The notes under the pieces are model-generated. The model was not told the origin of the DNA, made no database searches, and saw only the letters and a program-made list of their open reading frames with translations. Shown here piece after piece: positions 47,513 through 56,661 of a DNA stretch of 64,000 bases. The stretch spans positions 3,004,001 to 3,068,000 of the forward strand of contig NZ_CP021645.1 in the NCBI RefSeq assembly GCF_006384975.1. The letters run 5' to 3'. The first letter of the stretch is position 1. Each line of letters starts with the position of its first letter. A program made the position numbers and the translations under genes. The DNA is from Pseudomonas oryzihabitans. GTDB lineage: Bacteria > Pseudomonadota > Gammaproteobacteria > Pseudomonadales > Pseudomonadaceae.

Positions 47513-49300
47513 ATGGATAGCAAAAGGCCACAGCTCATGTTGCGGGTCCCGACGCCCGATCAACGCAGCCTGACGTTCTGTGACGCCACGCCAGCCGGCC
47601 TGAAACGCTGGCTGGACCAGTTGCCGCGCGCCAAGCTGGGCGAATTCGCGCGGCTGCTCTACCAAGGCCTGCTCGAACTCAATCGCCTGATCCTGACACC
47701 GGAAGCGCGCCTGCGCCTGCTCGAAGCCCTACGCCCGGACGTGCAGCGCGTCTGCCAGCAACTCGAGCGCCATGTGTTCAACCAGGCCATAGTGCTCGAC
47801 GAGCGCTCGCGCAAGGTCGCCAATCTCTGTCAGGCACTGCAGAACCTGCTGGCCGCCGGCTACAAGCTGATCGTGGTCGAGGAAAGCGAGCGCGGCGAAC
47901 GCAACACCCTGCTGGCTACCGCCATCCAGCGCGCGCTACGCGCCCTGTTCGGTCCGCTGATCAGGGCCGCGCAACTCTACACCCCTGTGCACGACAACCT
48001 GTGGCTGGAGCTGCACCAGCTCTATCGCCTCGCCGTCACCAGCGGCCTGCACACCCAGAAGATCCGTGACGAACTCCTGCCCGGTGACGGCAACCAGACC
48101 ATCACCCAAGCCTACAGCGCCGCCCTGCTGTTCGGCGCCGCGCGCTGCAATCAACTGCGCCAGAGCCATATCGCCCAGTTGACCCTGCATCTGGATGACT
48201 GGGCCGGCCTGGTTCGCCTGCAGGGACCGGAGCAGACCGGCACCCTGATGGTGGTGGCGCCCCAGATCGATGCGCCGCCACGCTATCGCTCGCTGCTGCG
48301 CGAAGCCAACCTCAGCGGTCTGCTGGGCCTCGCCCCGCAGGCGCTGGTGCAGGCCATCGAAGACTATCTGGCCCTGGCTCCGGAGCAGCGACCGCGCGCG
48401 CGCCTGCCGGTGCATGGCGATCTGTCCCTCGATCTCTTGCAACACCTGGTCGGCGCCTGGGGCCAGGAGGCGGATCGTGCCTTCCAGCGCATGCCCGGCA
48501 ACGGCCAGGTGCAGGTCTGCATCGGCATGAGTGCCCTGCACTATCAGCTCGCGGGTGGCCAGGCCTTCGCCGAGACGCTGCAACAGGCCGCGGCCCAGGT
48601 ACCGGAACCCTTCGCGCCCAAGCCCAAGGAAGATGTCTGGTCGCTCGCCTTCGATGCCGATACGCGCACCTCGGACACCTTGGAGTGGGATGCTGGCGCG
48701 CTGGAAGAAATCCACTACGACGTCCTGCCAGGCGAGGGCGATTCCGCCAGCCCCGCCTTTCCGATCCATAACGTACAGGTGGTCAACCACAGTCCGGGCG
48801 GCTATTGCCTGAGCTGGAGCGGCGAGGTGCCCGAACAACTGCAGGCGGGTGAATTGCTCGGTGTGAAACTGCCCGAGGACCACAATTGGGGACCCGCCGT
48901 GGTGCGCTGGGTCCGCCAGGTACCCGGCAGCGGCACCCAGATGGGCGTCGAATTGCTGGCTCCCACCGCCCGCCCCTGCGGCTTGCAACTGCTGCGCAAG
49001 GCAGAACAGAACAGCCAATACCTGCGCGCCCTGCTGCTGCCCGAGATCAAGGCCATCGACCAGGCCCCGACGCTGATCGCACCGCGCCTGCCCTTCCAGG
49101 AAGGCAGCAAGGTGCAGATCAATCAGCAAGGCGTCGAGCAGCGCGGCATGCTGGATCGGCGCCGCAGCATGACCGTGAGTTTCAGCGTGTTCGAATATCA
49201 CCTGCTGGAGCAGGCCAGCGCGCAACCGGCCGGCTCGCCGTCCGGCAGTGGTGGGGGACGCCAGGAGGAAGACTTTGACTCCCTGTGGAAGTCTCTGTAG
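47513..49300 (+). CDS. PilZ-like domain protein upstream of fimX
   Basis: 595 residues. A large helical N-terminal part (~1-400) has no domain I recognise. The segment ~418-490 (HNVQVVNHSPGGYCLSW...) resembles a PilZ domain: the N-x-S-x-x-G element is present, but I see no clear R-x-x-x-R before it, so c-di-GMP binding is doubtful. Start at 47513 (MDSKRPQLMLRVP) with AGGAG at 47496. Gene order psd-PilZ-fimX matches PA4957-PA4959 as I recall, suggesting a role in FimX or pilus/flagellar signalling. Confidence 0.75.
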   Translation: MDSKRPQLMLRVPTPDQRSLTFCDATPAGLKRWLDQLPRAKLGEFARLLYQGLLELNRLILTPEARLRLLEALRPDVQRVCQQLERHVFNQAIVLDERSRKVANLCQALQNLLAAGYKLIVVEESERGERNTLLATAIQRALRALFGPLIRAAQLYTPVHDNLWLELHQLYRLAVTSGLHTQKIRDELLPGDGNQTITQAYSAALLFGAARCNQLRQSHIAQLTLHLDDWAGLVRLQGPEQTGTLMVVAPQIDAPPRYRSLLREANLSGLLGLAPQALVQAIEDYLALAPEQRPRARLPVHGDLSLDLLQHLVGAWGQEADRAFQRMPGNGQVQVCIGMSALHYQLAGGQAFAETLQQAAAQVPEPFAPKPKEDVWSLAFDADTRTSDTLEWDAGALEEIHYDVLPGEGDSASPAFPIHNVQVVNHSPGGYCLSWSGEVPEQLQAGELLGVKLPEDHNWGPAVVRWVRQVPGSGTQMGVELLAPTARPCGLQLLRKAEQNSQYLRALLLPEIKAIDQAPTLIAPRLPFQEGSKVQINQQGVEQRGMLDRRRSMTVSFSVFEYHLLEQASAQPAGSPSGSGGGRQEEDFDSLWKSL

Positions 49301-52867: not shown

Positions 52868-54370
52868 GTGACCCGCCCCGCGACCGTCAAGCCCGATAAT
52901 TTCTTCCTGCTGATCTACCGAGCCCTGCGCCAGCGTCGTGTGCCGGTGGCCTTGCGCATCGTTTCCCACAGTCTGCTCCTGGTCGCCGCCGCCCTGGTGA
53001 TCTATGCCGGCATTATGAGCGTGCAATTCCGCCATGCCATGCAGCAGCAGGCCGACGCCGTCGGCCAGAGCCTGGTGACCCAGACCGCCAACTCCGCCGC
53101 CGAATTGCTGGTGGCCAACGACAACCTCAGCCTCAACGTGCTGCTGAGCAATCTGGCGCGCAATCCGCTGGTCGCCCATGCCGCGGTCTACAGCCCCGAC
53201 AACCGGGTGCTGGCCGAATCCGGCACCCGCCCGAGCCAGGGTCTGCTGACCGCCACCGACGGCATCTACAGCACGCCGATCCGCTTCCAGGATGTCACCG
53301 CCGGTCAGGTCCGCCTGGCGCTGGACATGAATCAGTTCCAGCAGCCGATGATGATCAGCCTGCAGAACATGGGCCTGCTCGGCCTCATCCTCCTGGCGCT
53401 GACGCTGATCCTCAGCCTGCGCCTGGGTCGGCAGCTGTCCACTCCGCTGCTGGAGCTGCGCGTCTGGCTACGGGATCCCGACGATCCGGCGCCGGGCGCC
53501 GGGCGCCTCGACGAACTGGGCGACCTCGCGCGCCAGCTGCAGAGCCGGCTGGTACCGCCCAAGCCGCCCAAGGCGGAAACCGCCGAAGACGACGATCCCT
53601 TCGCCGATGAGCAGGGTGGCCTCAGCGTCAAGCCGCCGCCCGCGCGCAAGGCCGCCAGCGCCAAGCCGGCCGCCCGCAAGCCGGTCGCGGCGGCGCAGCC
53701 GGAAGCTGACGAACTGGACGCCGACGCCTTCGCCGACCTGGTCCCCGACTCCTTCACCGAACCGCCGGCCACCCCGGCTCCGGCGATACCCACCGAGCCC
53801 GACATCGTCACCTCCGCCGTATTGGCGATCCAGCTCGGTGCCCAGGACCAGCTCAGCCGGCTGCCACGCAGTCGCCTCGAACAGTTGCTCGAACGCTATC
53901 GCGACTGCCTACAGCAGGCTACCGAGCTCTACGACGGGGAATTGCACACGCTCAAGGACGGCGGTAGCCTGATCCTCTTCCACGAGCGCAGCGATGACGA
54001 CGACTACCTGACTCGCGCCCTCTGCTGCGGCGAGATCATGCGTGCCCTGGGTCACGCCCTGCAGGTGGAAGTGGTCGGCAGCGGTGCAACCCTGCAGCTG
54101 CAGTTGGGTCTGACCCAAGGCGAACGACTCGCTGGCCTGGAGCTTGCCCAATTGCTGGACAACACCACCGTACGCAATGCCCAGGCGCTGAGCCGCCACA
54201 GTCGCAACCTGCTGCTGGTCGAGCAGAGCATCGCCGAGGACGAACTGCTGCGTAAGCGCGCCCGTATCCGCACCATCGCCAGCCCGGCCGGTGCCAGCTG
54301 CGTGGAGCGCCTTCTGGAACCCTACTCCGCGACGCTGGAGCGTCATCTGGTCCGGCTCGAGGCGCGTTAA
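52868..54370 (+). CDS. AhpA/SMP-type two-TM protein with cyclase-like C-terminus
   Basis: 500 residues. TM1 ~32-51, an extracytoplasmic region ~52-165, TM2 ~168-185; this half resembles the SMP/YtjB/AhpA family found beside serB in E. coli. A Pro/Ala/Glu-rich linker (~228-312) leads to residues ~313-455 whose strand-helix pattern (SAVLAIQL..., LLERYRDCLQQATELYDGELHTLKDGGSLILFH) resembles a class III nucleotide cyclase fold without the metal-binding aspartates, so probably a degenerate sensor domain. GTG start at 52868. Followed 21 bases later by the MORN/caspase-like gene, likely one operon. Confidence 0.7.
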   Translation: MTRPATVKPDNFFLLIYRALRQRRVPVALRIVSHSLLLVAAALVIYAGIMSVQFRHAMQQQADAVGQSLVTQTANSAAELLVANDNLSLNVLLSNLARNPLVAHAAVYSPDNRVLAESGTRPSQGLLTATDGIYSTPIRFQDVTAGQVRLALDMNQFQQPMMISLQNMGLLGLILLALTLILSLRLGRQLSTPLLELRVWLRDPDDPAPGAGRLDELGDLARQLQSRLVPPKPPKAETAEDDDPFADEQGGLSVKPPPARKAASAKPAARKPVAAAQPEADELDADAFADLVPDSFTEPPATPAPAIPTEPDIVTSAVLAIQLGAQDQLSRLPRSRLEQLLERYRDCLQQATELYDGELHTLKDGGSLILFHERSDDDDYLTRALCCGEIMRALGHALQVEVVGSGATLQLQLGLTQGERLAGLELAQLLDNTTVRNAQALSRHSRNLLLVEQSIAEDELLRKRARIRTIASPAGASCVERLLEPYSATLERHLVRLEAR

Positions 54371-54391
54371 AGCGCCCGCCGGACCCCACCT

Positions 54392-55930
54392 ATGCGCGCC
54401 CTCCTGCTCCGTCTCGCCTTCGCCGCTCTCCTGCTGGTGGCCTCTGTCACCCAGGCGGCGCCCAACGTGAGCACCGTGAGGCTGCCCGATGGCGGGATCT
54501 ACACCGGCGAGATCGTCAGTGGCCTGCTCAACGGCAGCGGTCGCATCGAATGGCCCAACGGCAACTGGCTCAAGGGCCGCTTCAAGGACGGCCTGGCCGA
54601 GGGACCCGGCGAACAGCAATTCGCCGACGGCACCTACTACCAGGGCACCTTCCGCCGCGGCCTCTATCATGGCCAGGGCAATCTGATCAGCAGCAGCGGC
54701 TGGGAATATCACGGCAGCTTCGTCAACGGCCGCATGCAGGGCCAAGGCTCCAAGCTCGACAGCGACGGCACCCAGACCATCGGCACCTTCAACGACGGCC
54801 ACCTCAATGGCGTCGGCCAATGGCAGGAACCGGGTGGCGACCGCTACGACGGCGAATTCGTCGACGACCAGTTCGAGGGAGCCGGTGTCTATCGCAGCGC
54901 TGGCGGCGATCTCTGGCGTGGCCGTTTCTCCGCTGGCGAGCTGACCGGCAATGGTGAATTCGTCGGCGACGACGGTAGCCAGTACCACGGCGGCTTCCGC
55001 AACTGGAAATTCGACGGCCCAGGCGTGCTCACCAACAACGATGGCAGCGTCTACCGGGGCAATTTCGCCGACGGCGTCTACGCCGGCATGGGCGTGCTGA
55101 CCCGCGTCGACGGTCAAGTCGAACGCGGTCTCTGGGAAGGCGGCAAGCGCATCCGCGATGATCAGGGCCAGTACATCGCCGATCCCCTGGAGCTCACCTT
55201 GCTCGACGAGGGCAAGATACTGGACCGGGAACTGCAACAGGTCCCGGCCTCCACGCCCGCCCCCGAACTCTACGGCCTGGTCCTGGCCGGCGATGGCAAC
55301 CAGGGTGTGTTCCAGCGCGAAGCCAACTACGTCGCCAACTTCATGACCACCACCTGGGGCGCGCGTGACGTCATTCGCCTGATCAACGCCAAGAACTTCC
55401 GCAGCGATCACCCACTGGCCACCCGCGAGAATCTCTACCAGAGCATCCAGACCCTGGCCCAGCGCACCGGTCCGGAAGACCTCATCGTCCTCTACCTGAC
55501 CAGCCACGGCTCGGCGGACCACCAATTGGTGCTCGACCAACCCGGGCTGGATCTCTCCAGCCTGCCGGCGGCGGAACTCGGGCGCCTGCTCGCGCCCCTG
55601 CGCGGCCGGGATAAGGTGGTCATCGTCTCCAGTTGCTACAGTGGCGGCTTCATCCCCCAACTGCAGGACGACCACACCATGGTGATCACCGCCTCCAAGG
55701 CCGATCGCACGTCCTTCGGCTGTACCGACGAAGCCGACTTCACCTATTTCGGCCGTGCCCTGTTCGGCGAAGCCTTCCAGCACACCGACGATCCCGAGCA
55801 GGCCTTCCAGCGCGCCCGCGAAACCGTCGCCGTACGCGAGAAGGCCGAGGGTTTCGATCCTTCCGAGCCGCAGATCTGGGCCCCGCCCGCCGTGCTGCAG
55901 AAATGGCGCGCCTGGCGCGCGAGTCGCTGA
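54392..55930 (+). CDS. Exported MORN-repeat protein with C13/caspase-like peptidase domain
   Basis: 512 residues with a signal peptide (~1-22, LLLVASVTQAA). Nine MORN-type repeats run from ~37 to ~245 (pattern Y-x-G-x-F-x(2)-G-x(3)-G-x-G), followed by a peptidase-like domain. YLTSHGS gives His372 and VIVSSCYSGGF gives Cys415, the His/Cys dyad of legumain/caspase-fold (clan CD) peptidases. Cys415 is followed by Tyr-Ser-Gly-Gly-Phe, as in the family. It would act in the periplasm or outside. Substrate unknown; no partner pro-domain is seen. 21 bases after the AhpA/SMP-type gene. Confidence 0.82.
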   Translation: MRALLLRLAFAALLLVASVTQAAPNVSTVRLPDGGIYTGEIVSGLLNGSGRIEWPNGNWLKGRFKDGLAEGPGEQQFADGTYYQGTFRRGLYHGQGNLISSSGWEYHGSFVNGRMQGQGSKLDSDGTQTIGTFNDGHLNGVGQWQEPGGDRYDGEFVDDQFEGAGVYRSAGGDLWRGRFSAGELTGNGEFVGDDGSQYHGGFRNWKFDGPGVLTNNDGSVYRGNFADGVYAGMGVLTRVDGQVERGLWEGGKRIRDDQGQYIADPLELTLLDEGKILDRELQQVPASTPAPELYGLVLAGDGNQGVFQREANYVANFMTTTWGARDVIRLINAKNFRSDHPLATRENLYQSIQTLAQRTGPEDLIVLYLTSHGSADHQLVLDQPGLDLSSLPAAELGRLLAPLRGRDKVVIVSSCYSGGFIPQLQDDHTMVITASKADRTSFGCTDEADFTYFGRALFGEAFQHTDDPEQAFQRARETVAVREKAEGFDPSEPQIWAPPAVLQKWRAWRASR

Positions 55931-56019
55931 GTGCCACTCTTGCCAGTGCCCCTGACGAACAACCGGAACGCCTGCGGTCCAATTCGGCATGAGCGGCCGC
56001 CGCTACCTAGGAGAGCCCC

Positions 56020-56661
56020 GTGTACCTGACGCCCCAGCATGCCCTCATCGCCGGCGCCACTGGCCTGACCGGTGAACACCTGCTCGATCGTCTCCTCAAC
56101 GAGCCGACGGTACCGCGGGTGTTGGCCCCGACGCGCCGCCCGCTGGCGGAACACGCCCGCCTGGACAACCCGGTCGGCGATCTCAACAGCCTGCTACCCA
56201 CGCTGCAGGGCCCGCTGGACGTGGCCTTCTGTTGCCTGGGCACGACCCTGAAGCAGGCCGGGTCCGAAGCGGCCTTTCGCGCGGTGGACTTCGGCCTGCC
56301 GCTGGCGGTGGGCCAACGCGCCCTGGAACTGGGTGCCCGCCACTACGTGGTAGTCAGCGCCATCGGTGCCGATCCGCAGTCCTCGATCTTCTACAACAGG
56401 GTCAAGGGTGAACTGGAGGAGGCCTTGCGTGGCCAAGGCTGGACACAATTGACCCTGGCGCGGCCATCCCTGCTGATCGGTCAGCGCCAGGAAGAGCGAT
56501 TGGGTGAACGCCTCGCCGCGCCCCTGTCGCAATGGCTACCGGGCAAATGGCATGGTATCGAAGCCACGGTCCTGGCCCGCGCACTGTGGCGCCTGGCCCT
56601 GGAAGAAAGCCAGGGCGTCCGGGTGGTGGAGTCGGACGAATTGCGCAAGCTGGGGCGCTGA
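56020..56661 (+). CDS. Atypical SDR/NAD(P)-binding protein (HTATIP2/YraR-like)
   Basis: 213 residues with an N-terminal Rossmann motif [17 protein letters not shown]. Segments [46 protein letters not shown] (a Tyr/Ser-x-Lys-like site, YNRVKG) and [15 protein letters not shown] are typical of the atypical SDR group related to HTATIP2. GTG start at 56020 with AGGAG upstream; no closer ATG. Substrate unknown. Convergent with the LysR gene across a repeat-rich gap. Confidence 0.85.

Follow-up and report, generated by a model that had tools for sequence, protein, structure and literature searches.

A MORN-repeat C13 peptidase of Pseudomonas oryzihabitans with a possible role in envelope maintenance

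A 64,000-nucleotide stretch of the Pseudomonas oryzihabitans genome (contig NZ_CP021645.1, positions 3,004,001 to 3,068,000; hereafter the window) encodes a protein of 512 amino acids (aa) in which MORN repeats precede a legumain-like peptidase domain of family C13. The predicted structure and the alignments support a clan CD peptidase that is exported and has a plausible catalytic dyad, and there is about an even chance that the protein is an exported C13 endopeptidase that uses its MORN arm while cleaving one or more envelope proteins in envelope maintenance. We read it as such a peptidase, and not as a toxin or death module. The features of the gene, numbered from the first position of the window, are as follows.

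54392..55930, plus strand: MORN-C13 peptidase gene, 512 aa (open reading frame (ORF) list, translation, Pfam, homologues and predicted fold)
54392..54457, plus strand: predicted signal peptide, residues 1-22 (hydropathy of residues 1-24 and sequence; presumed cleavage site)
54443..54445, plus strand: Ser18, aligned with the lipobox Cys of most relatives
54497..55117, plus strand: nine 23-aa MORN repeats, residues 36-242 (Pfam, repeat spacing and predicted fold)
55184..55237, plus strand: linker helix, residues 265-282 (predicted structure)
55259..55927, plus strand: Peptidase_C13 or legumain-fold domain, residues 290-512 (Pfam, predicted fold and structure comparison)
55505..55507, plus strand: His372 (LTSHGS), catalytic by alignment with legumain
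55634..55636, plus strand: Cys415 (SSCYSGG), catalytic by alignment with legumain
55721..55723, plus strand: Cys444, an additional invariant cysteine located between beta5 and the helix that follows

A preliminary description of this gene, whose ORF, strand and coordinates matched exactly, had proposed an exported protein joining nine MORN repeats to a caspase/legumain-like domain, and this outline was borne out. Export is predicted from the single hydrophobic segment at the N-terminus (residues 1-24 by hydropathy), which is followed by TQA-AP. The repeats are a true tandem array, matching Pfam MORN (PF02493) with E=4e-22, folding into a predicted solenoid and keeping an exact 23-aa period, with the first Gly of each unit at residues 39, 62, 85, 108, 131, 154, 177, 200 and 223. 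The consensus that had been offered for them, Y-x-G-x-F-x2-G-x3-G-x-G, is matched strictly in three of the nine units and in four of the nine with another aromatic residue for Tyr, the rest being looser. The C-terminal half matches Peptidase_C13 (PF01650) at 104.7 bits (E=8e-30; family cut-off 22.8), and His372 and Cys415 lie in the SHG and SSCYSGG contexts where they had been placed. The assignment had been staked on a clan CD core and on a His/Cys arrangement able to form a dyad, and the confident whole-protein structure prediction contains both, with His after beta3, Cys after beta4 and a plausible dyad. Legumain hydrolases and metacaspase 4 were among the matches when the predicted fold was compared by VIA-align. 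The protein gave no profile match to the metacaspase/caspase family C14 (PF00656), and it scored 40.2 bits against the EACC1-associated caspase model (NF047832), well under the curated cut-off of 140. Shared Pfam domains, low ratios of non-synonymous to synonymous substitution rates (dN/dS) and the confident fold place the peptidase far beyond chance; a long minus-strand ORF spanning the gene (53909-55990) is taken as a presumed shadow ORF of GC-rich DNA.

Conservation was assessed in a MORN-type alignment (the window protein and 120 listed homologues, 121 in all) and in a wider C13 alignment (120 proteins listed by a C13 profile search, making 121 with the window protein), both composed of best-scoring matches and hence biased toward intact copies. 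His372, Cys415, Arg309, Glu310, Asn332, Ser441, Phe442 and Cys444 are invariant in all 121 MORN-type proteins, and Ser413 is Ser in all but one; the dyad and Cys444 are also retained in all 120 proteins listed by the profile search. Cys444 is thus as invariant as the catalytic Cys throughout the C13 proteins aligned, and it could be a redox switch in the oxidising periplasm. Position 310, in alpha1, is Glu in every MORN-type protein and Glu or Asp in all 121 proteins of the wider set, and this acidic residue might favour basic P1 residues. Both halves of the protein are under purifying selection: 45 pairwise comparisons of ten close copies gave median dN/dS values of 0.044 for the MORN part, 0.061 for the linker and 0.072 for the C13 part.

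The architecture is already catalogued in databases and common in Pseudomonas, including P. aeruginosa and P. putida, and is not discovered here. Among 8000 scored candidates, 2217 were homologues; all 120 of those listed carry both Pfam domains, under NCBI names that include 'C13 family peptidase' and 'caspase family protein'. The nearest named loci, at 92% identity, place the window in the P. oryzihabitans group. Matches occurred in 29 of 57 genomes of relatives and in 24 of the 36 within the window's family. Farther afield, PF01650 occurred in 39 of the 369 genomes in a class sample and in 62 of the 398 in a phylum sample (the window's genome counted); among 29 further loci taken from the class sample, nine had at least five MORN-like units by a loose pattern. 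The same loose pattern gives arms of about 5-13 repeats across loci; the window copy, with nine, compares with 10-13 in most named relatives and eight in two, while domains, their order and the dyad are the same throughout the Pseudomonas proteins. A single origin of the fusion was considered and set aside: on a catalytic-domain tree of 38 rows the MORN label requires three changes, against a shuffled mean of 11.1 and with none of 500 shuffles as low, and the deep branches are weak.

Where MORN is missing, a membrane domain takes its place in most of the C13 proteins examined. Fifteen C13 proteins without MORN were examined by hydropathy, and twelve (L102, L108, L111, L114, L119, L120, L123, L124, L149, L151, L153 and L156; L-numbers denote individual loci) have 4-6 predicted transmembrane segments ahead of the catalytic domain (five segments in nine of these), while two have one segment. 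These transmembrane proteins of other bacteria (e.g. L102, L108 and L111) have a homologous catalytic domain, at 31-42% identity in 13 compared, and about five transmembrane segments where the window protein has MORN. In the four that were scanned (L102, L108, L119 and L120) Pfam matches the C13 portion only, leaving the membrane half without a domain name. This shared plan, in which either a MORN arm or a membrane domain is joined to the same catalytic core, raises the testable question of what bacterial C13 peptidases target in the envelope.

The preliminary description had suggested the MORN repeats as the membrane tether, which the analysis did not bear out. A lipobox is present in 77 of 80 named loci, 67 found by script and ten (L027, L052, L056, L058, L061, L066, L067, L071, L082 and L093) recovered from the sequence listing where the script had misread the start; the exceptions are L022 (LATC), L026 (no Cys) and L059 (LCAC). 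In the 67 script-found loci the residue after the lipobox Cys is Gly in 54, Asp in ten and Ala in three. Among the ten copies that are P. oryzihabitans-like (L001-L010), the Cys is missing from one and stands as LATC in two of the other nine. Because the lipobox is so general, a lipid is a likelier anchor than MORN in most relatives, to judge from their sequences. In the available portions of work on trypanosome MORN1, the protein did not bind lipid vesicles and MORN repeats are described as dimerisation modules; phosphatidylethanolamine did co-purify with it (PMC7725318), and by analogy MORN may still make contact with lipid. The MORN1 proteins of Trypanosoma, Toxoplasma and Plasmodium are eukaryotic and consist of repeats only, with no peptidase.

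The preliminary description knew no characterised bacterial example, and no paper on a MORN/C13 bacterial protein was found in the open-licence PubMed Central (PMC) literature; the available portions of a survey of prokaryotic caspase homologues contain neither the word MORN nor C13 (PMC3501461). The only MORN-type member met in that literature, as far as the accessible parts of the papers go, was PA4016, which appeared once in a worm-killing screen, unconfirmed, and once in a proteome table. We take PA4016 to be the probable P. aeruginosa orthologue, from a gene order that matches locus L030 (P. aeruginosa PA7). An active site that is invariant across many Pseudomonas species contrasts with a sparse literature on MORN-type members. 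In the sections available, PA4016 is shown beside PA4015 and PA4017 (PMC3406104) and is listed in an envelope proteome (PMC7835679). The closest functional parallel is abrp of Acinetobacter baumannii, a C13 peptidase gene; deleting it makes the membrane more permeable and the cells more susceptible to drugs (PMC10203620, PMC8003822); Abrp is likewise assigned to C13 by reviews, the accessible parts of which give the envelope permeability phenotype and leave MORN repeats unmentioned. Legumain itself has been considered as an identity for the window protein. The S1 residues of legumain are Asp231 with Ser216, Arg44 and His45, according to the portions available (PMC4357240). In a profile alignment that covered Ser216 and Asp231, Ser216 falls on Ser441 and Asp231 falls on Arg455, a position that varies among homologues, and the protein is not classed as an asparaginyl endopeptidase. 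The window protein also differs from legumain in its N-terminal MORN arm and in having no further domain after the catalytic one.

On the explanation we favour, the protein would be exported to the periplasm, where a beta-solenoid arm of MORN repeats would carry the legumain-fold catalytic domain. In most relatives a lipid on the N-terminal Cys would probably anchor this arm to a membrane, and the arm would most likely dock or dimerise the enzyme on an envelope partner. The His372/Cys415 dyad would cleave one or a few envelope proteins, and loss of the peptidase would weaken the envelope, by analogy with Abrp, from which the maintenance role is inferred. The whole chain is put no higher than an even chance mostly because its cleavage and envelope-weakening links are drawn by analogy.

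The genes on either side bear on how this explanation is weighed.

52868..54370, plus strand: upstream neighbour, a 500-aa protein with an SMP_2 domain, separated by a 21-base gap and lineage-specific (ORF list, Pfam and locus comparison)
56020..56661, plus strand: downstream neighbour, an NAD(P)-binding oxidoreductase-like protein whose gene usually comes next in Pseudomonas (Pfam and locus comparison) and whose Pfam matches lie slightly under the family cut-offs

Over the 80 named loci, with counts from a self-made gene caller that missed some genes, a MaoC-like dehydratase is next upstream in 58 and an NAD(P)-binding oxidoreductase next downstream in 63. The cluster names maoC, lrgA, lrgB, ubiX and mpl used here are presumptive, being our own reading of the sequences. 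ubiX or mpl lies downstream in many Pseudomonas MORN-C13 loci and still does in three of the four named loci of the P. oryzihabitans group. A partnership in which the oxidoreductase would depend on the peptidase was rejected: among the 12 family genomes that lack the peptidase, five retain the oxidoreductase in the same position, and the remaining seven show no match to it or only weak ones. We read the gene-loss pattern as neutral about the oxidoreductase.

Several points weigh against the favoured explanation. The oxidoreductase is present in each of the 24 family genomes that carry the peptidase, and a one-way link of the peptidase to this cytoplasmic-looking protein is possible. The gene is absent from 12 of the 36 family genomes, and is thus not essential there. 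In one of the 15 MORN-less C13 proteins no hydrophobic segment exceeded the threshold. Abrp was likened by description, and its architecture may differ. In the C. elegans killing screen two PA4016 insertions gave different results: the mutant made in an exoU-deleted strain was attenuated, and the one made in the wild type was not, according to the accessible part of the report (PMC3406104). Finally, the window copy reads LVAS and is not a bacterial lipoprotein by sequence, having Ser where most Pseudomonas relatives have the lipobox Cys, so that a soluble periplasmic protein is predicted, in contrast to most of the family. The copy at L002, 98% identical to the window protein, keeps the Cys, and the pair represents a natural lipoprotein-to-soluble change.

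It is conceivable, though unlikely, that the enzyme is a transpeptidase and not a hydrolase, linking an envelope protein with another molecule, as do the GPI transamidase subunit and plant asparaginyl ligases, which share its fold; this fold is matched equally well by legumain hydrolases and by metacaspase 4, and it does not discriminate. Rather unlikely, too, is an elaboration of the favoured explanation in which the lipid-anchored MORN arm, of evolvable length, would set the distance of the legumain-type enzyme from the membrane as an envelope sentinel, with docking or dimerisation triggering cleavage or transpeptidation of one envelope protein. If true, this would be a regulated bacterial C13 protease or ligase system with a logic comparable to that of site-1 proteases.

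A cell-death executioner acting with the holin-like LrgAB proteins is very unlikely, attractive as the gene order is, lrgA being called in 53 and lrgB in 43 of the 80 named loci, divergent from the maoC/MORN-C13 pair. Losses occur in both directions, and co-retention fails: five family genomes (L180-L184) keep lrgAB and the oxidoreductase (62-67%) at the same slot with the peptidase absent, whereas the window's genome has the peptidase and only relatives of lrgB and maoC at 37-38% identity, far from it. Ten MORN-type loci from other families, in which gene calls are sparse, yielded no match to lrgAB. That the peptidase has been lost alone and kept without lrgAB is evidence against a death module. 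At the slot in L180-L184, the MaoC-like gene was kept in one genome and not found in the other four.

That the protein is an enzyme-dead scaffold with the MORN arm as its working part is more doubtful again; the MORN half is indeed the more constrained among the ten close copies, but the dyad, Ser441 and Phe442 persist in all 121 MORN-type proteins (best-scoring matches), and inactive branches would be expected to drift. Least credible is a toxin, as suggested in the preliminary description, or an interbacterial or host-directed effector: clan CD includes secreted virulence peptidases (PMC4357240, in the portions available) and PA4016 appeared once in a virulence screen, but that screen dropped it after the second allele killed like the wild type, leaving the effect in the exoU-deleted strain open (PMC3406104, in the accessible part), and the gene is chromosomal, in a conserved Pseudomonas context, with both halves under purifying selection, neighbours that match SMP_2 and NAD(P)-binding families and not immunity or secretion genes, and a best PADLOC match, to a caspase, of 11.7 bits (E 0.026), the two neighbours being matchless at E 1, so that it is not a known anti-phage protein. 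The surveillance role that the preliminary description named beside the toxin may still apply.

A terminator scan of the gaps separating the three genes turned up no terminator-like site on the plus strand, promoter and terminator counts lying near the shuffled level. Elsewhere in the window, a 595-aa protein at 47513-49300, before a GGDEF/EAL gene, matched nothing in Pfam or NCBIfam at E 0.1. Twenty loci from other families, with sparse gene calls in several, showed no gene common to the MORN-type loci besides the peptidase. Among these loci, L169 and L175 (no MORN) have three genes in common and L168 and L169 have one, while L164, L168, L169, L173 and L174 each gave single matches to Pseudomonas neighbour clusters.
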